Assembly: GCA_938050045.1 (NCBI GenBank)
Contig: CALLJS010000007.1
Span: forward strand, 1 to 62,021
Reading direction: 5' to 3'
From: an uncultured Sphingomonadaceae bacterium
Lineage (GTDB): Bacteria > Pseudomonadota > Alphaproteobacteria > Sphingomonadales > Sphingomonadaceae
Length of the DNA: 62,021 bases
The position numbers were made by a program, and so were the translations under genes. This document shows positions 1 through 19,178 of the stretch, piece by piece. The first letter of the stretch is position 1. Every line of letters starts with the position of its first letter. The notes below the pieces were generated by a model. That model worked only from the letters and a program-made list of their open reading frames with translations. It was not told the origin of the DNA and did no database searches.

Positions 1-49
1 AATTTCGGAGACTGGTTCGCTTGCGACTGACACCAGGGGCGGTTCACTC

Positions 50-1480
50 TCACCTCCTCATAAAGCCTACATCAGATCCGGAGAAACTTGCCAGATTTGG
101 CAACGCCGCCGTAAGCTCGGCATCATTCAAGCCGAACCAGCGGCCCAATGTTGCAGCATATTGCTCGACTGACGTTGACGGAATCAATCTACCACGACTT
201 GGCATAAAGTCTGGTCCGGATGGAATTGGTGCCGGCAGATCACCATAAATCCGCCCGCCACGTACACTTCCCCCCATTACAAAATGATGTCCTCCCCAAC
301 CGTGATCGCTACCATCTCCATTGTCCGTCATTGATCGTCCGAAATCAGACGCCGTAAAGACTGCCACCTGTTCCCACAAACCACGATCAATCATAGTTTG
401 GCGAAATATCGACATGGCTTCGGACAACTCAGCATGAAGGCTAGGCAGTGTTGCGGCCTGATCGCTATGTGTGTCCCAACCGCCTACGGACACATAGAAG
501 ACCTGACGATTGACATTCAAGCCTCCTCGAATGTCAATCGTCTGTGCCACGGCATTCAACTGCTGACCCATACTCGTGGCTGGGAAAGAAGCTGGCGCGT
601 TCGTTGTCAGCCCGGCTGCCCGCTCGAAGTCTCGTGCATTCACAACGCCATCGCTCTTGACGCGAGCTAGATCGCGCTCGAACAGATTGCCGCTTTCAAA
701 ATCAGCTTGCTCGAAATAGTCGGCCATGAGTCCACGGGTAGTATCAAAACGTCTATCATTACCCAAAATACTACTGTCACGCGTCACGTTCACACGCAAA
801 GGGCCCCCCTCCGTGGGAACGCGGTATTGCCTCGCCGCATTGCCGACAAGGAAGACGTCATTCCCGTTAGCAGCTATCGCTGCATATATCGGGTTGGAAG
901 ACGGATCAGATGCTATGGCAGCATCCGCAAACCGTCCACCCCAACCAAATTGAGCACCTTCTGCATCAAGCGATTGCCAAGTCGAGCGCTGGTCATTATG
1001 GGAGAACAACTTACTGGGCAAGCGTGCCACATCATTCTCGATATCCTGCCGGCTCGTCGGCTCCAAGAGAGGGCCGACATTCCCGACAACGGCCAGATCG
1101 CCAGCGCGATAAGCATCGGCCAAGCCGGACAGTTCTCGCGGCAGCGCAAATTTCCGAGATCCAAATCGCGTGTCCCCCGGGGGGAGCGGCAATGCAACGA
1201 GATTGTCGATGTGCCGCGACGATGAGCTGTCTGTGGAATTATACGCAGCAAATATTCCCTGACGTTCGTTTCTGAGCAAATCATAAGATGCTCGATCAGC
1301 TGGAAGGATAGTATCATGACAATCCATCCCACCATTCAGGAAAATGCAAACGAGTGCTTTGTAGCCTCCGGTATCTGCGGCCCATGCTTTATTCTGGAGT
1401 ATCCCACCTAGTGCCCCGGACGCGCCTGCAAATGTGGCTGCTGATCCAGCGAGGAAGGCTCTTCGACTTAATTTGGTCAT
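50..1480 (-). CDS. DUF1501 family protein, Tat-exported
   Basis: Protein of 476 residues of the DUF1501 family, whose biochemical role is not settled; the fold is related to the alkaline phosphatase/sulfatase group. The N-terminus has a twin-arginine signal (SRRAFLAG, residues 5-12) followed by an Ala/Gly-rich hydrophobic stretch and a likely cleavage site after AWA near residue 34, so export as a folded protein is expected. Family landmarks are LNGGMDCHD near residue 50 and a His/Asp/Gly-rich segment (GDGSDHGWGGHHF, about 388-400) that could bind metal. It starts 17 bp after the DUF1800 gene stops, with the purine-rich AGGGA as ribosome binding site, so the two are surely cotranscribed. DUF1501 and DUF1800 genes commonly occur as such a pair. 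The family call is firm; the function is unknown. Confidence 0.9.
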   Translation of the reverse strand: MTKLSRRAFLAGSAATFAGASGALGGILQNKAWAADTGGYKALVCIFLNGGMDCHDTILPADRASYDLLRNERQGIFAAYNSTDSSSSRHIDNLVALPLPPGDTRFGSRKFALPRELSGLADAYRAGDLAVVGNVGPLLEPTSRQDIENDVARLPSKLFSHNDQRSTWQSLDAEGAQFGWGGRFADAAIASDPSSNPIYAAIAANGNDVFLVGNAARQYRVPTEGGPLRVNVTRDSSILGNDRRFDTTRGLMADYFEQADFESGNLFERDLARVKSDGVVNARDFERAAGLTTNAPASFPATSMGQQLNAVAQTIDIRGGLNVNRQVFYVSVGGWDTHSDQAATLPSLHAELSEAMSIFRQTMIDRGLWEQVAVFTASDFGRSMTDNGDGSDHGWGGHHFVMGGSVRGGRIYGDLPAPIPSGPDFMPSRGRLIPSTSVEQYAATLGRWFGLNDAELTAALPNLASFSGSDVGFMRR

Positions 1481-1497
1481 TTTGTCTGTCCCTAATT

Positions 1498-4400
1498 CTA
1501 ACGTATCACAGCGAAAGATGGTGAATTCATAATCATGAGCACTGCCATCTGCACTCTCCGAAGCCGGTCCTCTTCAGCGCTCCCGCTTGCAATGTCGACC
1601 GATGAAACAGCCGCGACAATCTCCTCGCGTTCCATATCGATCATTTGTTCCGCAGTTAGAAGAAGGTCCAAATATGCTACAAGCTGTTCCGGGTCATCCG
1701 CCAGAGCGACTGCTTCAGAATAATCCGGTATAAAGCCGGTCAGCCTGTCTTTCGACACACCTCTAACGAATACAAAGTCCGTAATATAATTGAGGAAGTT
1801 CAGACTTGTACTTCCTGTTATCAACTGAAGTTCAGGTCCTGTCAGGCCAGCCGGACCGCTCTCGGAGCCAGGAGCAACATATCCTGGGCGGTAGAAGTTG
1901 AAGACAGAGGTCGGTGCAAAAGGCGCCTGTCCAATACCACTGGTTGCAGCCTTTATCTTTAACCTGTCTACACGATTAGAGAAAACTCCCTCAAGCTCGA
2001 ATGCCCTTGCCCAATGGGCAAATTTTAGAATGGGTTCACGTATCTTTCCGCGGGAACTCTCTCTAACATCAGTCGGCTGGTGCACTGTCTCATCAAGCAG
2101 AATTGCGGCCATCGTTGCCTGCAAATCACCGCGTTGCCCAGTGCCAAAACTTGTACCGTTCACTGACACATAGCGACCCGCTGCAAAAGCATCCGCAACA
2201 CGGCGAACATATCTTGGACGCGGGTGTGATGATGTGAAGCGCTGTATGAGCTGGCGCGCAATAAAGGGCGCGGTATTGTCATGGTCTGCCAGCGTATCAA
2301 GCGCAATCCTTAGAGTCTCTGGTCCTGACGTTCCAGCGGGAATATTTGCCGATAGAAACACCTTTTCCTCAGGCGAGTGAAGGTCCGGATAATGCTGCAG
2401 TGGCACATATTGCGCCCGCGCAGTTCTTTTAGAATAACGACACTTCGTACCTTCTGCACCCCAGCCGGTAAAGACCCGCGCCATACCCTCAATGTCTTCA
2501 TTTCCATATGTTTCTATCGTATTGCCAGATGCGTCCAAGCGTTCTGTACCGTCTGGATTCAGCTCCAGTAAGCCGATCGAAAAGAGCTGCATAATTTCAC
2601 GAGCATAGTTCTCATCCGGCATGCTGCCCGTTTCAGGATTGGCTTTCTCGTTACAGTTATATGTAAGATATGATGCCATAGCCACGGATAGCGTGACGTC
2701 CTCCAAAAGCCCCCGATAATTACCGAAAGCATTGTCCTGTAGCAAGTCCACATAGTGAGTCATGTGGATATTGTTTGAATTGGTAAGCCCTCGGGTACTT
2801 ACGACAAATATCTGGGACAATGCGAAAACCATTCTCTGCCGCAACGAATCATCGCCTGCGAGCATCTCATCCCAAAGCGGACCGACAAAAACATCTCGAA
2901 AGACATTATCTCCTGCTTCAAATTGAGCAACAACCGGCGAAAGAATGTCTGGTCCCGGCTTGGCGAACTCTGCCTCTAACCACTGGGCTGCATCAGTTCC
3001 AACAAGCGACTTGATAGTGTCCATATCTGTACCCATGGATGCCTGTATAAGAAATCTCGCAACCTCTGCTTCTGTTTCGAGCATAGTTGCCGGGACAGAA
3101 GGCGGTGGCGGTGGCGGTGGCGTCGGCGAAGGCGTTGGCGTTGGCGTCGGCGTTGGCGTTGGCGTCGGCGTTGGCGTTGGCGTTGGCGTCGGCGTTGGCG
3201 TTGGCGTTGGCGTCGGCGTTGGCGTTGGCGTTGGCGAAGGCGTTGGCGTTGGCGAAGGCGTTGGCGTCGGCGTTGGCGTTGGCGTTGGCGAAGGCGTTGG
3301 CGTTGGCGTTGGCGAAGGCGTTGGCGAAGGCGTTGGCGAAGGCGTTGGCGAAGGCGTTGGCGAAGGCGTTGGCGTTGGCGAAGGCGTCGGCGAAGGCGTT
3401 GGCGAAGGCGTTGGCGTCGGCGTTGGCGTTGGCGTTGGCGTTGGCGTTGGCGTTGGCGAAGGCGTTGGCGTTGGCGTTGGCGTTGGCGAAGGCGGAGCCG
3501 CGCTCATAACCACAAAATTTACGGCGAGCGACGCAGAGTTGCCAGTTGGATCATAAGCCGTAGTGATGGCCTGGAAGTTACCCTCTTGCTCTGTCGTCCC
3601 AGATAGCACGCCATCTCGACTAAGCGTCAACCCCACCGGCAATCCAGCCGCCAAATATATCAGCTCTGTCGAATCCGCATCTTGGAAAGCGTTCAAACGA
3701 TTGAAGTCCAAATTAACTTCGTCGCCAAGGTCAAATATCATGGCAGATAGCGGCAAACCATTAACGGTTGGCGCAACGCCAGACATGTCAGAAGAACGAA
3801 GCAGCGGAGCAACAAGGCCCGTCACATCACGGCCTGTGCGATTATTTCCACTCAGTTCAAAATTAGCCGCACCCTGATATAGCATATCAGTTGTTTCGGC
3901 GTTATGGACCTCTGGATCAGAGAACAGATCCTCCACCAGCATACTGATAATGTCATCATTATTACCCGCACCTGAGAGAGCCGCTAGCCACAGACCGTAT
4001 GCTTGTTCCGCCGAAGGGGAAAACTCCGCATCCAGTTCCGTGGAAACCTTAGGTGTTGTCGCAAGGACATCGAGACCCTCGACGTTTACCAAGCCCTCAA
4101 CATCTTCAATTACTTGCTCGATCAAAGTTTGGTTCGCTGGTGAACCAGCCTCCATTTTGCGTTCCAACAAAGCCGTTGCGACACTTGTTAACGGAGTAAT
4201 ATTAGCCGTTATCGAAACCTCATACCCCACTGCACGTCCGGCAGGGGCTTCAAGCGAAGAAGACAAATCACCGTCCAAAACCCAAAAAACCGATGACATT
4301 GCAGCGTCCTCAACGAGATCGCCAGATGTTTCATCAACATACGAACAACCAGTTGCCCGGATCATGGCAGCCCCTGAAAAATCTTGTATCTCCGTGGAAT

Positions 4401-4644
4401 ACCGCCCTTGCGCATTGGAACGTGTAGACGACAATACTGTCGAATTCCGTAAGTCTGAAATTTCAATATCGCACTGAGCCAAACCAGCGACAACGCTACC
4501 CTGAACCGACGAAATGGTCGCTGGCACCGAGGGCGTCTGTCCATCAGTCAATATTCCTGAACTATTATTTAGATCAAGATCACATCCTGAAATCGAAATT
4601 GCCAGAAACGGCAACAAGGCAAATTGATAATCTCGTATGCTCAT
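1498..4644 (-). CDS. DUF1800 lipoprotein with long Pro-Thr/Ser linker
   Basis: Protein of 1048 residues. A lipoprotein signal ends in ISGC (Cys21), and the next residue is Asp, as in Klebsiella pullulanase, a lipoprotein secreted by a T2SS. Residues 22-300 form an N-terminal region of no recognised family. A putative Ig/cadherin-like module (about 300-380, with GLPVGLTLSRDGVLSGT typical of He_PIG) follows. Then comes a linker of about 130 residues made only of Pro-Thr and Pro-Ser pairs, and from about 525 to the end a DUF1800 domain. Start chosen at the ATG preceded by TAGGAG. It lies downstream of gspN in the same direction and upstream of DUF1501. Such linkers usually space a catalytic domain away from a membrane or substrate anchor; that reading, and any enzymatic role, is inference. 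Confidence 0.9.
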   Translation of the reverse strand: MSIRDYQFALLPFLAISISGCDLDLNNSSGILTDGQTPSVPATISSVQGSVVAGLAQCDIEISDLRNSTVLSSTRSNAQGRYSTEIQDFSGAAMIRATGCSYVDETSGDLVEDAAMSSVFWVLDGDLSSSLEAPAGRAVGYEVSITANITPLTSVATALLERKMEAGSPANQTLIEQVIEDVEGLVNVEGLDVLATTPKVSTELDAEFSPSAEQAYGLWLAALSGAGNNDDIISMLVEDLFSDPEVHNAETTDMLYQGAANFELSGNNRTGRDVTGLVAPLLRSSDMSGVAPTVNGLPLSAMIFDLGDEVNLDFNRLNAFQDADSTELIYLAAGLPVGLTLSRDGVLSGTTEQEGNFQAITTAYDPTGNSASLAVNFVVMSAAPPSPTPTPTPTPSPTPTPTPTPTPTPTPTPSPTPSPTPSPTPTPSPTPSPTPSPTPSPTPSPTPTPTPSPTPTPTPTPTPSPTPTPSPTPTPTPTPTPTPTPTPTPTPTPTPTPTPTPTPTPSPTPPPPPPPSVPATMLETEAEVARFLIQASMGTDMDTIKSLVGTDAAQWLEAEFAKPGPDILSPVVAQFEAGDNVFRDVFVGPLWDEMLAGDDSLRQRMVFALSQIFVVSTRGLTNSNNIHMTHYVDLLQDNAFGNYRGLLEDVTLSVAMASYLTYNCNEKANPETGSMPDENYAREIMQLFSIGLLELNPDGTERLDASGNTIETYGNEDIEGMARVFTGWGAEGTKCRYSKRTARAQYVPLQHYPDLHSPEEKVFLSANIPAGTSGPETLRIALDTLADHDNTAPFIARQLIQRFTSSHPRPRYVRRVADAFAAGRYVSVNGTSFGTGQRGDLQATMAAILLDETVHQPTDVRESSRGKIREPILKFAHWARAFELEGVFSNRVDRLKIKAATSGIGQAPFAPTSVFNFYRPGYVAPGSESGPAGLTGPELQLITGSTSLNFLNYITDFVFVRGVSKDRLTGFIPDYSEAVALADDPEQLVAYLDLLLTAEQMIDMEREEIVAAVSSVDIASGSAEEDRLRRVQMAVLMIMNSPSFAVIR
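3101..3495 (-). repeat. Hexanucleotide array coding the Pro-Thr/Ser linker
   Basis: Nearly 400 bp built of GGCGTT, GGCGTC and GGCGAA hexamers on the plus strand (GGCGGT at the left edge), read on the minus strand as Pro-Thr, Pro-Thr/Asp-free variants and Pro-Ser dipeptides inside the DUF1800 gene. Because the unit is six bases, gain or loss of units keeps the reading frame. The array also leaves other frames open, which makes long antisense Val-Gly and Ala-Leu reading frames that should not be annotated. Confidence 0.95.
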
Positions 4645-5183
4645 CTCGATACTACTCCTAGGCGGAAAAAGGCATTAGCACCCTGAGCAATACCCATAAG
4701 TCTTTCAAACTTACTTAGGTTCTGACCAGATAAGCACCACACATGGTTGGATTAGAGTAGAAAAGGAAATTTCAAGTTAAAATACTGATTGAATTTCAAA
4801 CGAAACTCAAATTAATCAGCAGGTAGATAAAAAAGGTCCGTCGATGTCGGATATGCTGACAGAGAAACTTTGTACAGTTAATGCGATTACAGCACTCTAC
4901 AAATTGCAGAAGTCGCGACCTGAGCTAACATTGCCCTCATATCCTTGGAAAGGAATGAGAACAGCCCGCCTGCGCCATATCGCCGGCACCCAATGGAGCA
5001 CAGGCAAATACATGAACATGGAGCCCCTACGCGGCATGAAACCTCAACCAAACGGAGCTGCCTTAGCACAATCAAAATCAGGAAAGATTTTGGACACTAC
5101 CTGGCTTTCCGTTTTGGTGGTGGTGCAAACCCAATCTATTACTCCCATAAGAGTAGAGGGTTTCGAACTTAAGCGATTTGTAC
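4645..5183. other. Gene-poor gap between gspN and DUF1800
   Basis: About 540 bp without a gene that I recognise. The last 100 bp before the DUF1800 start (4645-4800) are A+T-rich and probably hold its promoter. Short open frames exist on both strands (for example plus 4844-5191, preceded by AAGGT), but their translations show no family, signal peptide or membrane segment I can name. The stretch could also be a decayed gene or encode a small RNA. Confidence 0.4.
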
Positions 5184-5933
5184 CTATCTAAAAAAATCGA
5201 CCTGTTCGCGAAATACATAAGTCCCGGCCTCAGATAGAAAACCTATATTCAGGAGCTGTTCCGCAACAATTTCTGTCGTCGTGTGCACACGGATTTCAAC
5301 GTCAGACAACTCCTGCCAGCCCAAACGCATATTTACAGTCACGCGATCACTGAGTTCAAACGCACCTTCCATAGTCAGCAACAACTTTTCCTCATCGCAT
5401 ACCAGTGAGCCCGCCAGTTCACCCGCATTCAGCCCCACCTGCATCTCGACAATCTTCGTCAAAAGGTCACTGCTAATAGTACCGGAAGCCGTCACACAGA
5501 TATTATCTCGAAACCCAATGTTCACATCCTGCAAGTTCACTTTCGCGTCCGTCTCGCGTATTTCCGGAACTACATCAACGAGCCCCTGAACGCTAATCAT
5601 CGCAGCGAATCCATCCAGAGATACCAATTTGGAATTGAACGCGACAAGCCCTTCAGCGGTTACCCCAGGCCCGTCAAGTTTTACATCATATGCAATCGCC
5701 TTCCTCGACAGCGAGTTCAAACTAGCCCGCAGGTCAACATCGCCTATCGGTTGGTTGCCATACGACAGCCCGAAAGCCTTTCCCTTGAATATGGACCCCT
5801 GCATTCGTTCCCATCTTAGTCCCGCTTGGCCCAGCCCAGCTTTATCAAAAGCCCAACTCAGCGGCATCATCATCAAAACGGAGACAGAAAATGCCACGAT
5901 GAAGAGCATCGTCCACGCAGCAAATTGCTTCAT
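5184..5933 (-). CDS. gspN: Type II secretion system protein N
   Basis: 249 residues; T2SS_N family. One N-terminal membrane helix (about residues 8-28) followed by a beta-rich periplasmic domain, the usual layout of this inner-membrane accessory component, which is absent from some T2SSs and not essential in several. It overlaps gspM by 4 bp (ATGA), so it is the last gene of the translationally coupled run gspE-gspN. The family call is based on size, topology, the conserved KAFGLSYG stretch near residue 53 and position. Confidence 0.85.
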   Translation of the reverse strand: MKQFAAWTMLFIVAFSVSVLMMMPLSWAFDKAGLGQAGLRWERMQGSIFKGKAFGLSYGNQPIGDVDLRASLNSLSRKAIAYDVKLDGPGVTAEGLVAFNSKLVSLDGFAAMISVQGLVDVVPEIRETDAKVNLQDVNIGFRDNICVTASGTISSDLLTKIVEMQVGLNAGELAGSLVCDEEKLLLTMEGAFELSDRVTVNMRLGWQELSDVEIRVHTTTEIVAEQLLNIGFLSEAGTYVFREQVDFFR

Positions 5934-6406
5934 GGCTGTGTGCCCTGCAATTCAATTACCGCTTCGACGCGACCTTCCCGCCCGGTCATCGTTGCGGTAA
6001 GAACCTGCCCACCAGGCAAACCCGAAATATCCTGTAACCAACCAAAAATATCGATGGGAGAGGAATCGGAAAAAACGAAAAGCAAACTACCTTCTTCGCC
6101 ATTTTGCAATCTGGTGATCTCCAACCCCCGCCCCTGAGCAGTTTTTGTCACCTCTGCGCGAAACGTATCTTCATCTTGGGCTGCCGCCCCGGATGTTAGG
6201 CCAGATTGAACAATAGCAGAAACAGTCTGATCTGCCAGCGCCCGGTCTTGATATGCCCGATCCAGAGAGCGTCGAGCTTCTGCCTTCGCCTCGACTTGAG
6301 GCAAAATGATCACAAAGAGCAGCAATAGGCTTATGGTCAAAACACCAGCACTGCCGACCAAATATTTTTCTCTTAGTGAAAACTCATTCCATATACTGAC
6401 AATCAT
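5930..6406 (-). CDS. gspM: Type II secretion system protein M
   Basis: 158 residues, typical for GspM. A short cytoplasmic N-terminus (FSLREKYLVG) leads into one membrane helix at about 17-37 (GVLTISLLLLFVIIL), then a coiled-coil-prone segment rich in Glu/Ala/Arg and a small ferredoxin-like periplasmic domain. GspM dimerises and joins GspL in the inner-membrane assembly platform. Overlaps gspL at the 5' side and gspN at the 3' side by 4 bp each. Confidence 0.88.
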   Translation of the reverse strand: MIVSIWNEFSLREKYLVGSAGVLTISLLLLFVIILPQVEAKAEARRSLDRAYQDRALADQTVSAIVQSGLTSGAAAQDEDTFRAEVTKTAQGRGLEITRLQNGEEGSLLFVFSDSSPIDIFGWLQDISGLPGGQVLTATMTGREGRVEAVIELQGTQP

Positions 6407-7506
6407 GGTTCTGTCCCCAGTATCACATCGCCAACGACGCGATTACCCTCCTGACGTGCCGCCCCCAGACTCGCACTCACCCCAGCCTCCCCCAGTACTG
6501 ATTTGAGCACGATATCATCCCCGAAATCGGCATAAGAAATCCGAGCTATGAGCCCTCCATGTGCACGATCAAAACTCAGAGATCGAAGTTCCATCCCGGG
6601 CAATTTTTCCAACGCGTTGTATAGCGTGGCACTTGATGAGCGGAAATCCGTTTGTGTTTTGCTGATCCGGTCATTTGTAGCACGGGTAAGCGCCCTCATA
6701 TAATCATTCGTTACCGGAGCATTCGGATAGAGTTCGAGATAAATCTCCCTAATTTCTTCATCAATCATCTCAGCTTCACGGTTCATCCCATATGTTTGCA
6801 GAAAATTCATGGCAAACCAACCAATGAACAGAAGGCAAGCCAAAGCACCACAGAGCCGCCATTGCTTGAATGACTGCAATCTCTTGCCTTTCTCAGCTTT
6901 GAACACGCCTTGTCGCAAATCAAGCAATTCGGAGAGGGGTTCATCTCGCTCTGCCAGCTTTTGCAGGAGCTCCGACCTCGAGACCAATTGAGCTTGCTGC
7001 CCATTTAGAAGTACATCCAGCATTTTAGCCGGCATCGCCGCCTCAACAGAAAAAATCTTGTCTGCCATGTTTGCCATGACCCGCCCATCCGTCTCAAATA
7101 CATCACCAGGCCTAAGAACCGACGGGGTTGCAACCAAGATGGCCTGTGCAAGCATAGGCATAGTGGATAAGTAGTCAGTCCATACCCTCATAGTCTCCTT
7201 TGCTATGATGTGCACTTGGCGTGGCATCTGCAGATCCTCTCCTGCAGAGCCAATGGCGAAATGTGTATCCTCTATGGCCACGGCAATTTCATCTTCGAGA
7301 GCGTAAGCTGCAGCGTGTCGCGCCTCGTTGTCGTTACGAACGGGAAGTTTTGCCGAAAAAATGCCTACATCCATTCCTGGGACGAATAGAATGACAACAT
7401 CCTTCACGGATACAGATGCCAAAGCAACAGACGTGCTGTCTGAAGTGATCAGAGCGCCATTTTCATTGATAATATCTGTCAGAAAACCATAAAGACGTCT
7501 AGACAT
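6403..7506 (-). CDS. gspL: Type II secretion system protein L
   Basis: 367 residues from the ATG at 7506; a GTG three bases upstream is an alternative. The N-terminal half is the actin-like cytoplasmic domain that binds the GspE ATPase. One membrane helix sits near residues 216-235 (GALACLLFIGWFAMNFLQ), and the C-terminal periplasmic domain pairs with GspM. The start codon overlaps the gspK stop (TGATG), indicating translational coupling within the operon. Confidence 0.9.
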   Translation of the reverse strand: MSRRLYGFLTDIINENGALITSDSTSVALASVSVKDVVILFVPGMDVGIFSAKLPVRNDNEARHAAAYALEDEIAVAIEDTHFAIGSAGEDLQMPRQVHIIAKETMRVWTDYLSTMPMLAQAILVATPSVLRPGDVFETDGRVMANMADKIFSVEAAMPAKMLDVLLNGQQAQLVSRSELLQKLAERDEPLSELLDLRQGVFKAEKGKRLQSFKQWRLCGALACLLFIGWFAMNFLQTYGMNREAEMIDEEIREIYLELYPNAPVTNDYMRALTRATNDRISKTQTDFRSSSATLYNALEKLPGMELRSLSFDRAHGGLIARISYADFGDDIVLKSVLGEAGVSASLGAARQEGNRVVGDVILGTEP

Positions 7507-8486
7507 CACGAGGCTCCATAGGTGCGGCGCGTAACACGTATTGGCTGGTTGGATGATGCCAAATAGCGTGTTACAAACTGGGTCTTGTGGTCTTGCATTG
7601 TTACATGCCCAAGCAGGCGGAAATGACTTGACCGTATCGAAATAGCATCCAGATACCGAAGCTCCGGCGCAATGCGCGCTACAGCATCGGTTTCCAGGAA
7701 CTCTTCAACGGAAGCCCAGCCACCAATCGGCCGCTCAGACAAAACACGATCAGCAGCATCAACTTCAAGAAGCCCTGATAAGACCATTGACAAGAGCGGC
7801 GCCTGCTCAGGTTTCAACGTGTTGACATTCAAAATTGCCGCGTCTGGACTTTCGCGTACACAAACCAAAGGTGATAATTGGTTGTAGACCTGCTGGGAGT
7901 AGCCACGCACAGCACGAAGTTCCGAGACACTCACCATTGCCATCCCTGACGCCCGATAAGCTGGACGCAAGCTCGCATAATAGCCTGTTTCTGCACCATT
8001 CAAACGGGCCGTTGAGTCAGCATCCAGCCAATCTATGAGGCTGGCGATCAAGATACGGACATCATTGTCCGGAATATCCAAGCTTAGTAGAAGCGCTTGA
8101 TATTGCTTGATTGTACTACCACTTGGAGCTTCGGCATTTTCACGTGGACGCATCGCATTCAGATTGAAGCAATTGCTATCATCTTCCAGTATAGCCGACA
8201 CCTGCGCGCCATTTAACTCAGAAATAAACGGGACACCAAGATTGGCAGTTCGATCAGTGACCGCGCCATTGGTAGCAGTCATTATCCCCTCTAACCCAAT
8301 CAAACCCACCTCTTCCACTCCGGCGATTTGCCAGGAAATTTGTGCTCTCGCATCGCCCAAACGGGCACGCTCTAGAGAGTTTAGCGTACTTTCAAGCATC
8401 GCAAGCGCCGCGATCGACATAATTGCGACAAGAAGAAGAACCGAAAGCAAGGCAGCGCCGCGTTCACTGGAAGATGAAACAATCAT
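7506..8486 (-). CDS. gspK: Type II secretion minor pseudopilin K
   Basis: 326 residues, the largest pseudopilin. The prepilin cleavage site is SERG|AALLSVLLL. As in other GspK proteins the mature position 5 is not Glu, which fits its place at the tip of the pseudopilus complex with GspI and GspJ. After the hydrophobic helix comes the large alpha-helical insert (about residues 105-245) characteristic of the family. Overlaps gspJ by 4 bp and gspL by 1-4 bp. Confidence 0.92.
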   Translation of the reverse strand: MIVSSSSERGAALLSVLLLVAIMSIAALAMLESTLNSLERARLGDARAQISWQIAGVEEVGLIGLEGIMTATNGAVTDRTANLGVPFISELNGAQVSAILEDDSNCFNLNAMRPRENAEAPSGSTIKQYQALLLSLDIPDNDVRILIASLIDWLDADSTARLNGAETGYYASLRPAYRASGMAMVSVSELRAVRGYSQQVYNQLSPLVCVRESPDAAILNVNTLKPEQAPLLSMVLSGLLEVDAADRVLSERPIGGWASVEEFLETDAVARIAPELRYLDAISIRSSHFRLLGHVTMQDHKTQFVTRYLASSNQPIRVTRRTYGAS

Positions 8487-9109
8487 GATTGCCGACCACC
8501 GACGAGAAAACTTTGCGATAGGGTTTCTCCAGTTACAAAATGCAGATCAAAAATTACCGCATCCGGGAGTAGAGGATAGTCAGTATCGAGCACGAGATCC
8601 CATTGGTCTGACACGCCCCCCCCGGCACTAAACCGCACCGTTACCGTTTCCAGGCCTTCTATTAGCACTTCGTCAAACTTCGGAGTTTGGCGCGTCGCAT
8701 CCGGGCGCATCAAAAGGCGGCGCACCAAAGCGCCCCCATCGAACCGATATTCGACGACCAACAGCTCGCTACGGTCTTCAACTGCATCTAAATTGGTCCA
8801 GCCACCATGCACAAGCCCCAATATGACACGCTCGCGATTTGGCTGCCCACCAAAGAAACTTTGGAAACCGGACCCCGCAAATTCTCCCTCGATCAAACGC
8901 GGGACGGCATTTGCCAGATCTGTTTCCAAATATGCAGATACAAGCTCCATAGCTTGCAGGCGTTCAAGGCGCATATCAAGCAATCGCTTGCTCTCCAATG
9001 TCGCCAAGAGTACACGTCCCCCTGCCCCCATCAGCAAGGCCAACGCAAACACCGCAACAAGCATCTCGATCAATGTAAATCCAGCATCATTGGTGCGCGA
9101 ACCGATCAC
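8483..9109 (-). CDS. gspJ: Type II secretion minor pseudopilin J
   Basis: 208 residues starting with GTG at 9109 that overlaps the gspI stop (TAGTG). Class III prepilin signal NDAG|FTLIEMLVAV with the conserved Glu at mature position 5, needed for assembly. The rest is a beta-rich globular domain as in GspJ. It forms the tip complex with GspI and GspK that caps the pseudopilus. Confidence 0.9.
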   Translation of the reverse strand: MIGSRTNDAGFTLIEMLVAVFALALLMGAGGRVLLATLESKRLLDMRLERLQAMELVSAYLETDLANAVPRLIEGEFAGSGFQSFFGGQPNRERVILGLVHGGWTNLDAVEDRSELLVVEYRFDGGALVRRLLMRPDATRQTPKFDEVLIEGLETVTVRFSAGGGVSDQWDLVLDTDYPLLPDAVIFDLHFVTGETLSQSFLVGGRQS

Positions 9110-9483
9110 TAGCGCCGCCCCCTCAGCGTCGTAATTTGAGCCATCAGAGTCCCGCTATTTACCTCACTGACCAGGACATCAATCGACAAAATCCCCGCAC
9201 GGTCGGTATGCTCAATTGTGCGCTCCCAGGCAAAGCTACGTCCCATCTGCACGAGCTCACCTTGGACCACACCAATTTCCATAGGGGTGACCTGACTGAA
9301 GGTTTCAACCAGTTTAGCGTCAGCGATTGTTCTGGCCAAATAGTGCGATTCAAGCTGCTTCACCCCTGCAATACTACCGCGGGCAAGTGAACTGAGACTA
9401 AGCACCGCAGTCGACAAGATGCCCAAAGCGACAATCACCTCAATTAGGCTGAACCCCTGGTCCCGTTCGATTGGAATCTTCAT
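9109..9483 (-). CDS. gspI: Type II secretion minor pseudopilin I
   Basis: 124 residues, normal for GspI. Prepilin signal RDQG|FSLIEVIVALG with Glu5; the following sequence contains ARTIADAKLVE, a segment typical of GspI. Initiates pseudopilus tip formation with GspJ and GspK. Overlaps gspH by 4 bp and abuts gspJ. Confidence 0.9.
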   Translation of the reverse strand: MKIPIERDQGFSLIEVIVALGILSTAVLSLSSLARGSIAGVKQLESHYLARTIADAKLVETFSQVTPMEIGVVQGELVQMGRSFAWERTIEHTDRAGILSIDVLVSEVNSGTLMAQITTLRGRR

Positions 9484-9929
9484 CTCTCAAGTGCTCGACT
9501 GGCTTGGTGGCTGACATCTCGGCGTTCGTTCTTGCCGATAAGAATCACACGTACAGGATCCGGCACGCCAGCTGGGTAGAACAGGAAGCGCCATCCTGTC
9601 TCTCCCATTTTCTGGTCTGGAACATCCGCAACGACAGCTGGGGGGAAATCATGCGTTAGGTTTGCTGCAGGCACCCATTCTCCAGCTTGCCGACGCATCA
9701 CCTGATAGCTGGTCTCATTCAGGTCCAGCGCATAAACATATCCGGTCAAAACGGCACGCTTTTGTATTTGTTTAAAATTGGTTTCCAAGCCGATAACTTC
9801 TGCCTGCAAACCACTTGCACGTTCCGGCAATGACATCACGATAAATCCTGACGTCAGTCCCAGGATAAAAACCACCACAAGAACTTCCAGAAGCGTGAAG
9901 CCGGATTCAGAAGCATTTGTGCTTATCAC
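9480..9929 (-). CDS. gspH: Type II secretion minor pseudopilin H
   Basis: 149 residues with a GTG start at 9929, just 3 bp after the gspG stop. Prepilin signal SESG|FTLLEVLVVVFILG with Glu5, then a beta-rich head. GspH lies between the major pseudopilin GspG and the I-J-K tip. Confidence 0.88.
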   Translation of the reverse strand: MISTNASESGFTLLEVLVVVFILGLTSGFIVMSLPERASGLQAEVIGLETNFKQIQKRAVLTGYVYALDLNETSYQVMRRQAGEWVPAANLTHDFPPAVVADVPDQKMGETGWRFLFYPAGVPDPVRVILIGKNERRDVSHQASRALER

Positions 9930-9932
9930 CTG

Positions 9933-10373
9933 CTAATTCCAATTTCCGATATCAGCGTTTTCTTCTTCACCGCCAACTTCTCCGTCGGCACCGAATGAGA
10001 AAACGTCATAAGCCGCACGAGAGCGCTCCGCTGGAAAGACATATTGATAAGGCCGCCCCCATGGGTCATTCGGCAATTGCTGAATAAACCCCCCTCGCGG
10101 ATAGAGCGCGCCATTGCTCAAGTCCCCTGGTGCCTCAATCAATGCCTGAAGTCCCTGCTCCTCAGTTGGGTAAGTATATAGCTGCAAACTGTAGCGTTCC
10201 AGACTTTGCGAGAGCGCAGAGATATTTGCTCTTGCTGTTTTCGTTTGCGCATCGGTTCGAGCGCCGAGAACATTTACCAACACAACAGTAGACAGGAGTC
10301 CAATAATGAAAACCACAACCATGATCTCTGTGAGAGTAAAGCCTGCCTCGGATTTCCGGGTCTTCTTATGCAT
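9933..10373 (-). CDS. gspG: Type II secretion major pseudopilin G
   Basis: 146 residues from the ATG at 10373, chosen because GGGGAAG precedes it; an in-frame ATG 18 bp upstream lacks such a site. Prepilin signal SEAG|FTLTEIMVVVFIIGLL with Glu5. The head carries the GspG hallmarks PTEEQGLQALIEAP, NDPWGRPYQY and an Asp/Glu-rich calcium-binding loop near the end (FSFGADGEVGGEEENADIGNW). It is the main subunit of the pseudopilus piston. Confidence 0.96.
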   Translation of the reverse strand: MHKKTRKSEAGFTLTEIMVVVFIIGLLSTVVLVNVLGARTDAQTKTARANISALSQSLERYSLQLYTYPTEEQGLQALIEAPGDLSNGALYPRGGFIQQLPNDPWGRPYQYVFPAERSRAAYDVFSFGADGEVGGEEENADIGNWN

Positions 10374-10390
10374 AGTCTTCCCCTTATTCA

Positions 10391-11602
10391 TTAACCAAAT
10401 GCAAGCGTATTAAGCTGCATAATTGGCAGCATAATAGATAGCACAATCAACGCGACAATCGTTCCCAATGCAAGTATGATGAAGGGCTCCAAAAGCCCCA
10501 GAACCAAAGCCGAGGCACTGTCAAATTCATCCTCAAGATAACCAGCCCCCTTGTCCATTAAGCCTGCCAAATTATCGCTTGCCGTGCCGCTCGCCATCAA
10601 GCTGGTTAGCATCGGCGGAAATACCTTTGATGCCGCCAGTGCCCGTGCTGGCTGGGCGCCCTCGCGAACAGCAATAATGGCTTCTCCCAAAGCGTTCACA
10701 AAAACTAGGTTTGCGAGCGAGCCCCGTGCAGCCGTTAGACTTTCCACAACGGGCGTACCGCTCCCGACCAGCATGGCAAATGTTCTTGCAAACCGGGCAC
10801 TATTTACGGTGCGCACCAACTTACCAACAATCGGCAACTTCAGCACCATCGTATCTAGCCGTAGCCTTATCGCAGGTCGTCGCAACAGCCGTTTCAGACC
10901 GATCAATCCAAGCAAACAAACTACCCCAAGCCCTAAGCCATAGGTCTGCAGTCCTTCTGACAGTGCAATCACAATACGGGTTAAAAGTGGCAGCTCCTGT
11001 CCGAAATTGGTAAACTGATCAACGACACGCGGGACAACAAAAACCATCAACAAGCCGACCACCGTCATCGCCACAACACCCAGAACGGCAGGATAGATCA
11101 ACGCTGTCCGGACCTTACGATTGGTTTTCTGGATTTTTTCCAAATGGTCTGCCAGATTTTCAAGAACAGTCGGCAAAGCACCAGACAGCTCACCTGCCGC
11201 CGTAGCCGCAATGTAGAGCTTTGAGTAAGATGTCGGAAAATCACCCAGCGCTTCGGAGAATTTGTACCCTTCAGAAACTTTGTCCCGCATCTGGGCAAAT
11301 ATCCTGCGTGCCGTTGGTTTTTCCGCCTGCAAAGAAATCGCACCGAGCGCCTGTTCTACTGGTGCCCCAGTGCCAATCATAATTGCCATTTGGCGGGTCA
11401 CCAGAACACGCTCGGAAATCGTCAACTTTGGCGTTCGGCGCAAGCCTTTCGTCGAAGCTCTCGGCTTGGCTTCGGCAACTGACATCGGGGTCAGGTTTCT
11501 GAACCGCAATTCGCGGCGAGCCGCGCGAGCATTGTCTGCTGTCACAACACCATTTTCTTTACGGCCATCGGCACCCAGTGCCATATATTCAAAGGTCGGC
11601 AT
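10391..11602 (-). CDS. gspF: Type II secretion inner membrane platform protein F
   Basis: 403 residues from ATG 11602, which has AGAGGG eight bases upstream; a GTG nine bases earlier is possible. Two repeated T2SSF domains (about 65-190 and 270-390) with three membrane segments, near 165-190, 215-240 and at the C-terminus (IALIVLSIMLPIMQL). GspF is the polytopic core that transmits motion of GspE to the pseudopilus. Its start lies inside the end of gspE. Confidence 0.95.
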   Translation of the reverse strand: MPTFEYMALGADGRKENGVVTADNARAARRELRFRNLTPMSVAEAKPRASTKGLRRTPKLTISERVLVTRQMAIMIGTGAPVEQALGAISLQAEKPTARRIFAQMRDKVSEGYKFSEALGDFPTSYSKLYIAATAAGELSGALPTVLENLADHLEKIQKTNRKVRTALIYPAVLGVVAMTVVGLLMVFVVPRVVDQFTNFGQELPLLTRIVIALSEGLQTYGLGLGVVCLLGLIGLKRLLRRPAIRLRLDTMVLKLPIVGKLVRTVNSARFARTFAMLVGSGTPVVESLTAARGSLANLVFVNALGEAIIAVREGAQPARALAASKVFPPMLTSLMASGTASDNLAGLMDKGAGYLEDEFDSASALVLGLLEPFIILALGTIVALIVLSIMLPIMQLNTLAFG

Positions 11603-13082
11603 GTCGCGCACCCTCTTTACGGCTGACCCGGATCACCTCATCCAGGCTGGTCTCCCCTGACAGGACTCGGGCAATCCCGGCCTGAAACAAGGTCGGGTGC
11701 TCCTCAAATGCGGTCTCGGCAAGCACCGCCTCATCAGCATCATCGTGGATAAGGGTCCGAACAGATGACGATATCAACATCAATTCATAGATGCCGACCC
11801 GGCCTGTATACCCGGTGTTGCGACAAGACGCGCAACCTTTGGGGCGATAGAATAAGTGCGCTTCTGATGCTTCCAACTCAGCGGCCTCAAATTCGGCAGC
11901 ACTCGGCACATAACCTTCACGACATCCTAGGCAAAGCCGACGTACAAGGCGCTGGGCCAAAACAGCGCGCAGCGTGGATGATAAGAGATAAGACTCTACT
12001 CCCATATCCCTCAGTCGAGTTATTGCGGCGGCAGCCGAATTTGTATGGATCGTAGATAAAACAAGGCGCCCCGCCAGCGACATTCGCGCTGCTACGCTTG
12101 CCGTTTCGACATCCCGGATCTCTCCCACCATGACAATGTTCGCATCTTGTCGCAAGAATGCACGAAGACCGGAAGCAAATGTCATCCCGACCTTATCATT
12201 AACCTGTGTCTGCCCTATCCCATCAAGACCATACTCAATCGGATCCTCAATTGTGATAATGCTTTTCGTCCCATCATTGAGCAAACTCAGACCGGAATAG
12301 AGTGTCGTGGTCTTTCCCGACCCCGTAGGACCACTGACAAGAATGACCCCATTTGGTTCGGTCAACGCTGCTTTGAAGCGTTCGAGCGTCTCGATCGGCA
12401 TACCCAAATCTTCGAGACTCATAAGAGCCTTGGCCTTGTCCAGCAATCGAAGCACCACCCGCTCACCATAGCGCGAAGGCAAAGTCGAAACACGAATATC
12501 AACCGACCGCCCACCGACCGACAGTGCAATTCGGCCATCTTGCGGCACACGGCGTTCGGCGATATCCAAGCGCGCCATGACTTTGATACGTGAAACAAGC
12601 GGCGTAGCCAAACGCCGGGAGGGGTTCAAAACCTTCTGCAGGACACCATCAATACGATAGCGGATTGTGAGTTCATCTTCATTGGGTTCAACGTGAATGT
12701 CCGATGCACCACGATTGATGGCTTCGTAGATCAATCCATTGATGAGACGGATGACAGGAGCATCATCATTGCCATCAAGAAGGTCTGCAGTTTCATGCAG
12801 ACCTTCGGCCAGACTCGCTAAATTGTCATGGCCAGCCAATGCAGCCGCCTCATCTTCCTCGGCAAGATCCGCGCGCGCATAAGACGCCGGCAACTGCCGG
12901 GCGAAATCTTCTGCAGAAAACGTCTCAACCTTGAAAGGACGGCCCAACACCCGTCGAGCCTCCAACAACGCGTACGGATCACTATTCTCCCGAACCGCCA
13001 GCGTTAATGAAGGGCGTCCATCGAGCACCATAACGCCTTTGTCGCGTGCGAAAGCATAAATTAGGGAAGAGTGTGAGCTCAT
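11589..13082 (-). CDS. gspE: Type II secretion traffic ATPase E
   Basis: 497 residues, the usual size. The N-terminal domain (1-100) binds GspL. The ATPase core has Walker A GPTGSGKTTT near residue 252, the Asp box, Walker B in MVGEIRD near 315 and the His box, followed by a four-cysteine zinc module (CLGC ... CASC, about 382-424) and GRVGIYEL. This cytoplasmic hexamer powers pseudopilus assembly. It is the first gene of the coupled E-F-G-H-I-J-K-L-M-N run. The IS630 remnant lies only about 280 bp upstream, so its promoter must lie in 13083-13365, in the IS, or further up. Confidence 0.96.
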   Translation of the reverse strand: MSSHSSLIYAFARDKGVMVLDGRPSLTLAVRENSDPYALLEARRVLGRPFKVETFSAEDFARQLPASYARADLAEEDEAAALAGHDNLASLAEGLHETADLLDGNDDAPVIRLINGLIYEAINRGASDIHVEPNEDELTIRYRIDGVLQKVLNPSRRLATPLVSRIKVMARLDIAERRVPQDGRIALSVGGRSVDIRVSTLPSRYGERVVLRLLDKAKALMSLEDLGMPIETLERFKAALTEPNGVILVSGPTGSGKTTTLYSGLSLLNDGTKSIITIEDPIEYGLDGIGQTQVNDKVGMTFASGLRAFLRQDANIVMVGEIRDVETASVAARMSLAGRLVLSTIHTNSAAAAITRLRDMGVESYLLSSTLRAVLAQRLVRRLCLGCREGYVPSAAEFEAAELEASEAHLFYRPKGCASCRNTGYTGRVGIYELMLISSSVRTLIHDDADEAVLAETAFEEHPTLFQAGIARVLSGETSLDEVIRVSRKEGARHADL

Positions 13083-13364
13083 TTCACCATATCAAGATTA
13101 CCGATACCACCGTGCCGCAATATTTTAGAATGACATTGAACCAAATGCGAGAACTAGCAATTCTGGATCGGCGACACTGCTGATATCACAACCACCCAAA
13201 CTACCAAGCAGGTTAGGCCCGACCAATTAATATTGTCATAACAAATGTCCTCTGTTCGCCGCAGGCAGAACATCACACACCAGCCATTTCCTAATATTGA
13301 GCCCCAACAATAACTCGGAAAGGTGGCGGTAATTTCCGTCTACAAGGTTCGACGCGTGCACCCT
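13083..13364. other. Gap between gspE and IS630 remnant
   Basis: About 280 bp with no convincing gene on either strand. Before the IS arrived it was the spacer between the gspD-linked lipoprotein gene and gspE and may carry a gspE promoter. One frame that is open here is only the out-of-frame tail of the transposase reading frame. Confidence 0.4.
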
Positions 13365-13389
13365 TAAAGCTGGTTGTTGCTTGCATGGA

Positions 13390-14339
13390 TCAGTACCCGG
13401 CTCCTTTGAGGTAGTTTCTGCATTCGTTTGGTGCAAATTGCTTGAGTTGGTTTCCGATTTCTTCCCAGAGGGTTTCGACAGAGCGTTTTGCGGCGCGTCT
13501 GAGGTTTCTTTTGAGCTTTGAGAAGACTTGCTCGATCGGGTTGAGATCGGGGCTGTAAGGGGGCAGGAACAGAAGCTCCGCACCTCTTGCTTCAATCAGC
13601 TCGGAGACATCCTTATTTTTGTGCGAGGACAGATTATCTATGAGTGAAACGGATCAGAAAACGATTGAGTATCGTTTTCCTGTTGAACAATATCGCCAGG
13701 AGCAAACGTCGGGGCCAGGAACTCAGCGACATAGGCGGTGAAGATTTCCCGGTTCATCGGACAATCGATCACCATCGGAGCGATAATTTTATCATGCCTT
13801 AGGCCGGCAACAAAGGTCGAGGTCTTCCAATGCCCAGCGGAGCCCTCGCAATGTACCGTTGACCACGTAGCGCCCAGCCATAACGGCAGGCCATGTTCGT
13901 CGCCGCTCCCATTTCATCAATGAACACAAGCTTTTTGGGATCAAGCTCACCTTGACCGCGCTGCCAGAGCCAACGGGCAAGCGCAACATCGCCACGTAAT
14001 TGTTCAGTCGCAAACAGGCTCCTTTTTTTTGTATGTGACGCCGGCACGTTTGAAGAAGCGTGAGAGGGCCGCCTTGTCGGTGCGCACGCCATGGGCCTCC
14101 TCAAGCCGTGCGGCGATGTCGATCAGGCGCAGCTCCGGTTCGCTTGTGCGCAAATCAATCAACCAATCGGCATGCGCCCAGAGGACCGAGCGGCATTTGC
14201 GCGCGGGCGGATCATTAAGTTCGCCAGTCTCTCGCCAGCGGCGCACCCAGCGGATAGCCGTCGCAGACCGCGCAGAACAACCCGCGTCAACCGCCTCAAT
14301 AACTTTGCGCCGAAACCGCAGATCATATGAAAAACCCAT
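13390..14339 (-). pseudogene. IS630-family transposase, broken
   Basis: Reassembled across frames this is an IS630 DDE transposase. It begins with MGFSYDLRFRRK and a helix-turn-helix that seems to lack about nine residues between CSARSA and TAIRWVRR. Near the A8 run at 14023-14030 the frame must slip by -1 to reach KKRSLFATEQLRGD, possibly a programmed frameshift. The first catalytic Asp is in LVFIDEMGA. At about 13832 one base is missing before the FVAGLRHDKIIAP segment. A 41 bp palindromic insertion with an in-frame stop lies just before IDNLSSHK, which holds the second Asp. The third acidic residue is in PYSPDLNPIEQ, and the end is YLKGAGY. It cannot give an active enzyme. Confidence 0.88.
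13640..13686. repeat. Small palindromic insertion inside the transposase
   Basis: About 41 bp more than the transposase needs, located between the codons for APGDIV and DNLSSHK. Its core is a perfect 9 bp inverted repeat, GAAAACGAT (13657-13665) and ATCGTTTTC (13671-13679), around TGAGT. It shifts the frame and adds a stop. It looks like a miniature mobile palindrome, but I see no second copy in the window. Confidence 0.55.
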
Positions 14340-14415
14340 CTCAAAAAATCCTCCTGAAAAATTACAGAGAATCAGAGTTCGGCCAATTTGTGAATCGCAA
14401 AAGTGACAACTGAAC

Positions 14416-15018
14416 CTAGTTAACCAACCCTCGACGACTCCGACCGCGCCTGCGACCAGTGGGCGGCGTCGGAACACTCTTACTTGCCGGACTTGTCATA
14501 CAGGCACGTGCACCGACAATCGGAACCGTTGCCTTCCAGCCATCAGAATCAGTATAGGAGATATGCCCAGTCGAAATTCTAGCACCATTCACCAAATCCT
14601 CACCCGGCTCATAGTCAATTTCCACGATACGATCATCCTTCTGAACCGCGTAAGTTAGATTCGTCAGAAACTGTCCAAAGATATTCCCACCCGCATCGAT
14701 GAGTGTAGCCGGGGTCTCCATACCTTCAAAAAGAAAGACAGCATCTTCATCACCGGAACGGGTAAAGAACAAGAATTTGGATATGTCAGTTTGACTCCAG
14801 AAAAACAAACCGCATTCGTTTGGACCCAAGGTCTGCGGCGGCAAAGACCCAAGGCCTTCGATAGAGGTTAGTTCGGACACTGCAGTATTTTGGGACTGGA
14901 TGCCAGTTGCTTCAAAGCCGCTCTCTTGACTTGCAGGCACTGACGCACATGCAGCCAAACTCAATGACACCATAAGAACCATTGGGGACGAATCAGAGTA
15001 TTTGAATGAACGAGACAT
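14416..15018 (-). CDS. Lipoprotein encoded between gspD and gspE
   Basis: 200 residues. Lipoprotein signal with LAAC (Cys24) followed by Ala, which in enterobacteria would send it to the outer membrane. The mature part has no family I can name; it contains a conserved-looking core from CGLFFWSQTD (about 69) to VGARACM (about 172) with two cysteines that could form a disulfide, and an Arg-rich tail. It starts 45 bp after gspD ends and is clearly in its transcription unit. Position and type make it a candidate for a secretin-assisting lipoprotein (pilotin-like). The stop codon overlaps the IS630 target site. Confidence 0.8.
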   Translation of the reverse strand: MSRSFKYSDSSPMVLMVSLSLAACASVPASQESGFEATGIQSQNTAVSELTSIEGLGSLPPQTLGPNECGLFFWSQTDISKFLFFTRSGDEDAVFLFEGMETPATLIDAGGNIFGQFLTNLTYAVQKDDRIVEIDYEPGEDLVNGARISTGHISYTDSDGWKATVPIVGARACMTSPASKSVPTPPTGRRRGRSRRGLVN

Positions 15019-15063
15019 TCCTATGGCCTTTATACTTGGTTACGAAAGTTTCCTACGGATGCT

Positions 15064-17007: not shown

Positions 17008-17343
17008 ACGAATACCTCTGAATTAAGCAGTGAAACTGGGTCACAGCTTAACGTTAACGCCCAAATCGTTAAGATTGTCCTATATGCATCGAGGCGGGAG
17101 TAACAGCACACCACGTGCGCCATATTTAGGTTTACCCACAGCCCCGCAAGGACAAGTGCTTTCCACATAACGCCGCAGTCATTGCCGGACAATGGCCAAG
17201 CCGGTTTAATCAAAATGCGGACAAGCGCGAAGCGCATTCGCGGGAAGCGGGCACCGGCCTTTTTATAAAAATGCGTTTAAAAACAAGAAATTGCGGCACA
17301 TTCGCGATCAAGAGATTTGCGAACGTGCTCTAGAAAGGCCGGC
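17008..17343. other. 336 bp gap between gspC and gspD
   Basis: gspC and gspD usually lie close together; here they are separated by 336 bp. One open frame (minus 17004-17237) overlaps the gspD start, but its translation is without recognisable features. The palindrome TTAACGTTAA (on the minus strand just before gspD, near 17046-17055) could be an operator. A separate gspD promoter in this gap is plausible. Confidence 0.4.
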
Positions 17344-18285
17344 TCAAACCGTCAAATTCAGAACCGTCCCGTCTCTATCTAACGTGACATCGACTGCACC
17401 ATCACCTTCAAAAAGCTGATAAATTTGTATCAGTCCGAGCGCGGCAATTTGCTGACCATTAACCCTGACGAGCACATCACCCTGTTTAAAGCCCAGCTCA
17501 AAAAATCTGCGCATGTTCGATGCCGTACCAATTCTATATCCAACGGATCCATCTTTTTGCTTAACGGGATTAAGCGAAACATGTCGGATAAAGTCCCGCC
17601 GGTCATTGTCTCGATTAGCAAGCACTGTCTCGACCTGAGCCGTGGCAGAGCTTGACATATTTTGATCTAATATAAGTCCCCGAAAAGGCCTCTTTTTGCG
17701 GACAACAGTCCGAAATCCGGTATTCGATAATGAATCTAGCAAAATGCGTTCCGAAATACCCTCGCGGTTTATGATTATCTGGTTTTCCAGTATGGACGCC
17801 ACAAACACCCCCTCAATGACCTCATCCCCTTCGCGGACGAGGCTTTGCTCCCCATCAGGCTTCACGACGATAGCGCCGCCTTTTTCAGCATTCACGAGGT
17901 CAGCCCGCAAACCCAGCAATTTTATGTTTAGTGCCGTGTCCGGCGCATTCCCGGGCACAGCCAGCGATTGTGTCGGCTCAAATCTGGCAAATGGATTGCT
18001 GGTCAAAAGTACTGGAAATTCAACCACCTGATACCCAGTTGATCTGGCTGGACTGCTTGCCGATATTTGAGAGAGATGGCCGCTGGGTTGCACCAGCTCT
18101 GCCGTGCTCCAGAAAACCCGGCCGAGAAACACCGCACAAACAATAATGAGTCCCGCTAGAACAAGCTTTCCGAATACTCCGGACATCAAATGAGAAACGA
18201 AGTGTGCTGCTGTTTGACCACGTCCCAATACTCGTCTAGAAAGACTCTGACGAAGCAATGCCTTATCCTGAAACAGCAACACCAT
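17344..18285 (-). CDS. gspC: Type II secretion inner membrane protein C
   Basis: 313 residues from the ATG at 18285 (MVLLFQDKALL); an upstream start would add 25 residues of unlikely sequence. One membrane helix near 45-65 (LVLAGLIIVCAVFLGRVFW), a periplasmic homology region (about 110-180, LLGLRADLVNAEKGGAIV) that contacts the N0 domain of GspD, and a C-terminal PDZ domain (about 225-313, FKQGDVLVRVNGQQI). GspC links platform and secretin and helps select substrates. Follows gspO by about 80 bp. Confidence 0.92.
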   Translation of the reverse strand: MVLLFQDKALLRQSLSRRVLGRGQTAAHFVSHLMSGVFGKLVLAGLIIVCAVFLGRVFWSTAELVQPSGHLSQISASSPARSTGYQVVEFPVLLTSNPFARFEPTQSLAVPGNAPDTALNIKLLGLRADLVNAEKGGAIVVKPDGEQSLVREGDEVIEGVFVASILENQIIINREGISERILLDSLSNTGFRTVVRKKRPFRGLILDQNMSSSATAQVETVLANRDNDRRDFIRHVSLNPVKQKDGSVGYRIGTASNMRRFFELGFKQGDVLVRVNGQQIAALGLIQIYQLFEGDGAVDVTLDRDGTVLNLTV

Positions 18286-18363
18286 TTTACCCAAATTTTT
18301 GACTATACACATCAACACGCTACACGTTCTCGGTTGATGAAACATAAACGGCGTTCGCAAAAT

Positions 18364-19062: not shown

Positions 19063-19178
19063 TACGGCATTGTCAGCGGAAACGGACCTTGAGGCAAGAA
19101 CTCCGCTACTCTAGGCTCAGGACCTATTGATTTGCATTGCTGGGCGAATAGTGATTCAGGATGGTAAAGGAGTTTGCC

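Follow-up and report, generated by a model that had tools for sequence, protein, structure and literature searches.

A DUF1800–DUF1501 gene pair beside a type II secretion gene set in a Sphingomonadaceae bacterium: probably a self-contained exported unit

The 62,021 nt contig CALLJS010000007.1 of an uncultured Sphingomonadaceae bacterium (assembly GCA_938050045.1) is referred to here as the window, and is the complete contig C7 of a 2.42 Mb genome. Its minus strand carries a type II secretion system (T2SS) gene set followed by genes for two exported proteins, of the families DUF1800 and DUF1501. An earlier note on this DNA, made from the sequence alone, had proposed the two proteins as cargo of the adjacent T2SS. 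The pair is more probably (about 0.6) a self-contained two-gene unit for proteins of the envelope or cell surface, with a T2SS route used, perhaps, in some lineages. DUF1501 would fold in the cytoplasm, leave it by the twin-arginine translocation (Tat) pathway and act as a metal-dependent phospho- or sulfo-ester hydrolase, and DUF1800, here a lipoprotein, would be its partner because the pairing of the genes is constant. The unit occurs in many different neighbourhoods; here it follows a T2SS of Hyphomonadaceae type within compositionally odd DNA. It would generally persist without need of a T2SS, which may carry it outward in certain lineages. In the surveyed Alphaproteobacteria as a whole, the pair does not depend on a T2SS.

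The DUF1501 and DUF1800 proteins

The DUF1501 gene (50–1480, minus strand) encodes a protein of 476 aa that matches PF07394 (E 3.1e-32, 112.7 bits against a cut-off of 27). Its N-terminus, MTKLSRRAFLAG, is a twin-arginine signal with SRRAFL ahead of a hydrophobic stretch, in agreement with the earlier note. Arg7 is invariant in an alignment of 43 rows and Arg6 is present in at least 90% of them, and because the twin-arginine is conserved, export by Tat is predicted. The residues D53, H161, D336, H338, D392 and H393 are invariant in the same alignment, an Asp/His pattern that we take to resemble the metal ligands of the alkaline-phosphatase superfamily; no Ser, Thr or Cys that could serve as nucleophile is among the invariant columns of the 43 rows. 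As modelled, the overall fold is that of this superfamily, and the conserved Asp and His residues would suit a metal-dependent phospho- or sulfo-ester hydrolase. Compared with nucleotide pyrophosphatase/phosphodiesterases and choline sulfatase, members of the superfamily, identity is about 10–13% and the Foldseek TM-scores are low (about 0.3). A sequence-profile search of the PDB at E ≤ 1 gave no match for DUF1501.

The DUF1800 gene (1498–4644, minus strand; 1048 aa) encodes a lipoprotein that matches PF08811 over residues 530–1045 (E 1.9e-75, 255 bits against a cut-off of 26.1). After the lipobox ISGC, followed by Asp and Leu (ISGC-DL), come an N-terminal region that matches no Pfam family, a linker rich in Pro and Thr, and the DUF1800 domain. 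We propose that this domain is mostly helical and is held on a long flexible linker, here as part of a lipoprotein. The protein is much longer than its relatives (mean 615 aa in 53 loci), the extra length being due to the N-terminal region and the linker.

The Asp at position +2, directly after the lipidated Cys, had been correctly reported, and had been used to argue for a sorting signal of the pullulanase type, as for a T2SS substrate. This argument fails, as relatives do not keep the residue: in 67 DUF1800 rows with a lipobox, position +2 is Gly in 48, Ser in 12, Asn in two, Asp in two, and Thr, Gln and Lys in one each, a count without the 33 rows in which no lipobox was recognised and the 41 that locus edges cut short. 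The only other Asp+2 row (L103) comes from G022, a genome that is 86% complete and in which T2SSC and T2SSK were searched for and neither was found. Klebsiella pullulanase reportedly has Asn at +3, where the window protein has Leu. The two are alike, going by the excerpted passages of PMC2996285 in which pullulanase is cited, in being lipoproteins with Asp after the lipidated Cys that are encoded beside a T2SS; they differ in domain, in the +3 residue and in the lack of conservation of Asp+2 among relatives of the window protein.

Some DUF1800 proteins have no room for a signal peptide. At most 30 codons are open ahead of the domain in 24 of the 160 classified DUF1800 rows (e.g., L061, L065, L070 and L074), and proteins of this kind stand beside a Tat-bearing DUF1501 in L060–L076 and L271–L275, among others. 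The adjoining DUF1501 has a twin-arginine start in most of the loci shown, such as MLNRRYF in L104 and MTLNRRD in L074, and an Arg-Lys start, not a twin-arginine, in L274 and L275. A DUF1800 without a signal next to a DUF1501 with one suggests, from the sequences, export of the two as a complex, possibly by hitch-hiking on Tat.

Co-occurrence with T2SS in surveyed genomes

In named genomes, 57 loci encode a relative, several of them short or cut by contig ends. DUF1800 was also found in 49 of these by a single-sequence search and in three more (L050, L056 and L059) by profile. Gsp proteins are nearby in two of the 57, L048 (Gemmatimonadota) and L059 (Jannaschia). T2SSC is present in 22 of the 28 genomes holding such loci or pairs, a set dominated by T2SS-rich groups; the majority of carriers there thus possess a T2SS at some place in the genome. 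The genome of Caulobacter vibrioides, used as a control, matched DUF1800, DUF1501 and T2SSC. Among 61 genomes of relatives, DUF1800 occurs in 29, T2SSC in 39 and both in 24. The two share a contig in six of the 24, being 16 kb apart in the window and 198 kb to 1.48 Mb apart in the other five, and are on separate contigs in the remainder. None of 20 fetched pair loci of relatives has a T2SS operon, and none of 20 fetched T2SS loci of relatives has the pair, using a query that can miss short-type pairs.

A survey of 296 genomes of the window's order (DUF1501 at E ≤ 1e-20) found DUF1501 in 40 and T2SSC in 128, with no association between them (both in 17, DUF1501 only in 23, T2SSC only in 111, neither in 145; odds ratio 0.97, p = 1). 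Where both are present they lie within 20 kb of each other in two genomes (the window's and G270), 135 kb to 1.6 Mb apart on one contig in seven, and on separate contigs in eight. The 105 Hyphomonadaceae genomes likewise gave no association (both 44, DUF1501 only 3, T2SSC only 51, neither 7; p = 0.51). Six related genomes have a paralogous pair 16.6–18.6 kb from gspC; in G326 it is on the opposite strand, with other genes between. The pairs nearest to that of the window (type A) have no gsp gene in eight fetched Hyphomonadaceae loci (L003, L222–L225, L227, L231 and L232). The genomic association that cargo status would imply is at chance level in these alphaproteobacterial surveys, and rises above it in Gemmatimonadota (see below).

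DUF1800 and DUF1501 of the window are the sole matches to both families in its genome, and the probability that the pair would lie within 20 kb of gspC by chance is about 1.2–1.7%. Adjacency in one genome is by itself weak evidence, and the window had been picked for it.

Other neighbourhoods of the pair

In the genus of the window, all 14 fetched loci of the long-type pair (L090–L103) have a type IV secretion cluster of VirB type alongside. The cluster consists of a transglycosylase, VirB2, B3, B4, B6, B9, B10 and B11 (families checked in L090); VirB4 is present in 13 of the 14 loci, and L094, cut by a contig end, has the first two genes of the cluster. Among the short-type loci of the genus, the five that were fetched (L104–L107 and L109) showed no VirB cluster. 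A genome of another genus, G167, also has a VirB cluster beside the pair, and 11 other examined loci of its family (L201–L204 and L288–L294) have none. The long-type pair and the VirB genes occur in several relative orientations (L090–L103, L165 and L287).

The excerpts of PMC5122149 describe a pair of the same families (PF08811/PF07394) that is likewise adjacent and carries a Tat motif on DUF1501; the window differs in having a T2SS neighbour and a much longer DUF1800. In enterobacteria and others, these excerpts place the pair together with chitin synthase (PMC5122149). Tandem double DUF1800–DUF1501 pairs are seen in L004, L198 and L233. A pair similar to that of the window (L031) is on a short contig that was assigned, possibly by a binning error, to Ilumatobacter (Actinomycetota).

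Gene layout of the window

The order on the minus strand is gspO, gspC, gspD, then gspE to gspN, a gap of about 540 bp, DUF1800 and DUF1501. Pfam matches and coordinates bear out the earlier description of two exported proteins that follow a T2SS gene set on the same strand, as well as the gap. The T2SS genes extend to 19062, beyond the end at 13082 given before. The set is complete, with matches over the cut-off for GspC, GspD (with its N0 domain), GspE, GspF, GspG, GspI to GspN and the prepilin peptidase in one cluster, and its frames are open; the full operon once described is broken up by a lipoprotein gene and a transposase remnant that lie between gspD and gspE.

From the upstream end, all on the minus strand, the genes are the prepilin peptidase gene gspO (18364–19062; PF01478, E 2.8e-17), gspC (17344–18360; PF11356, E 3.2e-16) and the secretin gene gspD (15064–17007; PF00263, PF21305), followed by a T2SS-associated lipoprotein gene, here named Lpp200 (14416–15018), which is out of the 3′-terminal position that it usually has in the operon. 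Next is the remnant of a transposase of the IS630 insertion sequence (IS) family (13799–14477), which matches NF033545 over 14004–14477 (E 3.1e-11, under the curated cut-off); its frame 13799–14104 had no match in a Pfam search. The second run comprises gspE (11589–13082; PF00437, E 3e-139; used for a tree), gspF (10391–11611; PF00482, E 8.7e-53), gspG (9933–10391; PF08334, E 1.9e-34), gspH (9480–9929), gspI (9109–9483; PF02501, E 2.8e-10), gspJ (8483–9109; PF11612, E 6.9e-20), gspK (7506–8486; PF21687, E 7.6e-29, and PF03934), gspL (6403–7509; PF12693, PF05134), gspM (5930–6406; PF04612, E 3.9e-17) and gspN (5184–5933; PF01203, E 3.8e-12). GspH was named by position, having the N-methylation motif alone (PF07963, E 7e-6), and has matches at the equivalent position in T2SS loci of relatives. 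In the gap between gspN and DUF1800 (4645–5183), promoter- and terminator-like sites were not above the level of shuffled sequence. On the plus strand, beyond gspO, are two IS5-family transposase frames, 19161–19547 (NF033580, E 4.7e-29, slightly under the cut-off) and 19595–19882, of which a 65%-identical copy is found elsewhere in the genome (L134).

Origin of the T2SS–pair block

Positions 1–19100 have a guanine plus cytosine (GC) content of 0.512, against 0.448 for the rest, and the IS5-family element sits at the edge of this block. In tetranucleotide usage, the block correlates at 0.45 with 15 stretches sampled from the genome, whereas the rest of the contig, taken in two parts, gives 0.83 and 0.85. 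Of the stretches themselves, 14 reach 0.70–0.88 against the others, the exception being L140, with conjugation-type genes (0.37). Within the block, the pair and the gspE–gspN part correlate at 0.28.

A GspE tree of 40 rows groups the window with five Hyphomonadaceae rows (support 100/98), and a DUF1501 tree of 110 rows, made by a quick method with the Shimodaira–Hasegawa-like approximate likelihood ratio test (SH-aLRT) as its only support, places the window in a 13-row set with Hyphomonadaceae (99). In both trees the window is away from its own genus and on a long branch. Fifteen fetched loci (L129, L179, L180, L182–L186, L188–L192, L228 and L235) have a homologue of Lpp200 at the 3′ end of their T2SS operon, and one adjoins gspN in L221; no Lpp200 match was seen in 19 T2SS loci fetched from the genus of the window (L110–L128). 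Lpp200 belongs to no Pfam or NCBIfam family (window and L182 copies), and could be a pilotin-like accessory. Its family is common in alphaproteobacterial T2SS operons, and its members share a motif resembling CGLFLW and, close to the C-terminus, a conserved Cys; the copy in the window was aligned with 13 homologues.

The pair sits near the position expected for the Lpp200 gene, and this, with the displacement of that gene, suggests a local rearrangement. The adjacency of T2SS and pair in the window looks derived. The two may have arrived together, to which their composition (0.28) lends no support, and the contig end, which is 49 bases from the stop of DUF1501, is possibly chimeric.

Linkage outside the window and alternative readings

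Observations that weigh against a self-contained unit come in large part from Gemmatimonadota. In the class to which L048's genome belongs, DUF1800 occurs in 42 of 119 genomes, T2SSG in 31 and both in 20 (p = 1.5e-4). Of 53 DUF1800 matches, 45 were examined; eight of the 45 form a subtype that matches the L048 protein at E ≤ 1.8e-131, all others being at E ≥ 3.9e-78. Gsp genes adjoin the subtype in six of seven resolvable loci (L048, L267–L270 and L277, not L276; L278 is cut by a contig edge), directly downstream in four, divergent in L267 and about 5 kb off in L269. A strong T2SSG match is present in all eight subtype genomes versus 14 of 111 others (p = 4e-7, uncorrected for kinship); it is the immediate neighbour of the pair in only three of them (G349, G522 and G569) and is 15 kb off in G571. 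In G492 and G543 the distance exceeds 1 Mb, and G510 and G516 have the two on separate contigs. With the eight set aside, T2SSG accompanies DUF1800 in 12 of 34 genomes and occurs in 11 of 77 without it (p = 0.02, kinship again uncorrected). To the same side belong G270, a separate T2SS-linked case with the order gspE, gspF, two open frames, DUF1800 and DUF1501, the pair being 2.0 kb after gspF; the absence of any match for DUF1800 in a PDB search; and the fact that the 23 order genomes with DUF1501 and no T2SSC (T2SSK gave no match in 22 and one under the cut-off in the other) were scored with models that can miss divergent systems, T2SSK missing the T2SS of G270. The subtype loci (L048, L267–L270 and L276–L278) are mostly beside T2SS-like genes, and by eye the signals are of Tat type on DUF1800 in seven of eight (L267 is ambiguous) and on DUF1501 in all eight. 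The L048 system has a GspD N0 match under the cut-off, a GspE with an MshEN domain, PilN- and PilX-like parts and no T2SSC match, and these atypical parts make it T2SS-like rather than a textbook T2SS.

These linkages favour the view that the two proteins are cargo of the T2SS beside them, in which DUF1800 would wait in the inner membrane, DUF1501 would fold and cross it by Tat, and both would reach the surface through GspD. The same-strand adjacency in the window and the grouping of both its T2SS and its pair with Hyphomonadaceae agree with it, and the earlier proposal is partly borne out: export of the proteins and their joint conservation are supported, and the linkage in Gemmatimonadota and G270 keeps the T2SS idea from being dismissed. 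For the pair of the window, the argument for a T2SS is weak: Asp+2 is rare, T2SSC is missing from 23 of the 40 order genomes with DUF1501, all eight fetched loci with its nearest relatives lack the linkage, the order and Hyphomonadaceae surveys show no association, two of 57 named loci have Gsp proteins nearby, and the arrangement in the window looks derived. Nor would a surface lipoprotein need this route, going by the excerpts of PMC2996285 on Caulobacter ElpS, an alphaproteobacterial surface lipoprotein of a T2SS-bearing host, likened here by description only: according to its authors it has no signal of the Asp+2 type and needs no T2SS to get across the outer membrane, its release depending on a T2SS-secreted protein. 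Cargo status is possible but rather unlikely for the pair of the window, and the Gemmatimonadota subtype is a better place for the idea.

Somewhat less doubtful, though still on the improbable side, is an accident in which IS activity, or a chimeric contig end, joined a T2SS and a pair that are both foreign, without any functional relation. The GC content and tetranucleotide composition of the block, the difference between the pair and the gspE–gspN part, the IS630 remnant within the gene run, the IS5 element at the block edge, the displaced Lpp200 gene and the contig end next to DUF1501 all fit this; but a working set transferred as a whole could also have an odd composition, the gsp frames are still open, and the Gemmatimonadota subtype retains its T2SS link. 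A further reading has DUF1800 and DUF1501 folded and exported as one complex through the Tat signal of DUF1501, signal-less DUF1800 hitch-hiking and later sorting differing between lineages. The 24 signal-less rows, most of whose adjoining DUF1501 proteins shown start with a twin-arginine, point to it, but such a DUF1800 might remain in the cytoplasm and the window protein carries a lipoprotein signal of its own, and we find the reading rather unlikely. Our confidences overlap because the accident and the complex are both compatible with a self-contained unit. Least likely of these is a combination, in which one Tat-exported complex would take an outer-membrane route set by lineage, a lipid anchor in many Proteobacteria and a T2SS in the Gemmatimonadota subtype and perhaps the bacterium of the window.

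Significance

The passages of the literature that name DUF1800 or DUF1501 give, in the excerpts consulted, no function for either family. On the combined reading above, the Gemmatimonadota subtype, which has Tat-type signals on both proteins, would be a pair of dedicated T2SS substrates and would offer a first hold on the function of two widespread families. If the two proteins go through Tat as one complex and, in some lineages, continue through a T2SS, both families would gain a defined point of entry for experiments. If they do not, the window is an example of how a striking adjacency in one genome can mislead, the corresponding pair of its own genus adjoining a type IV cluster instead.

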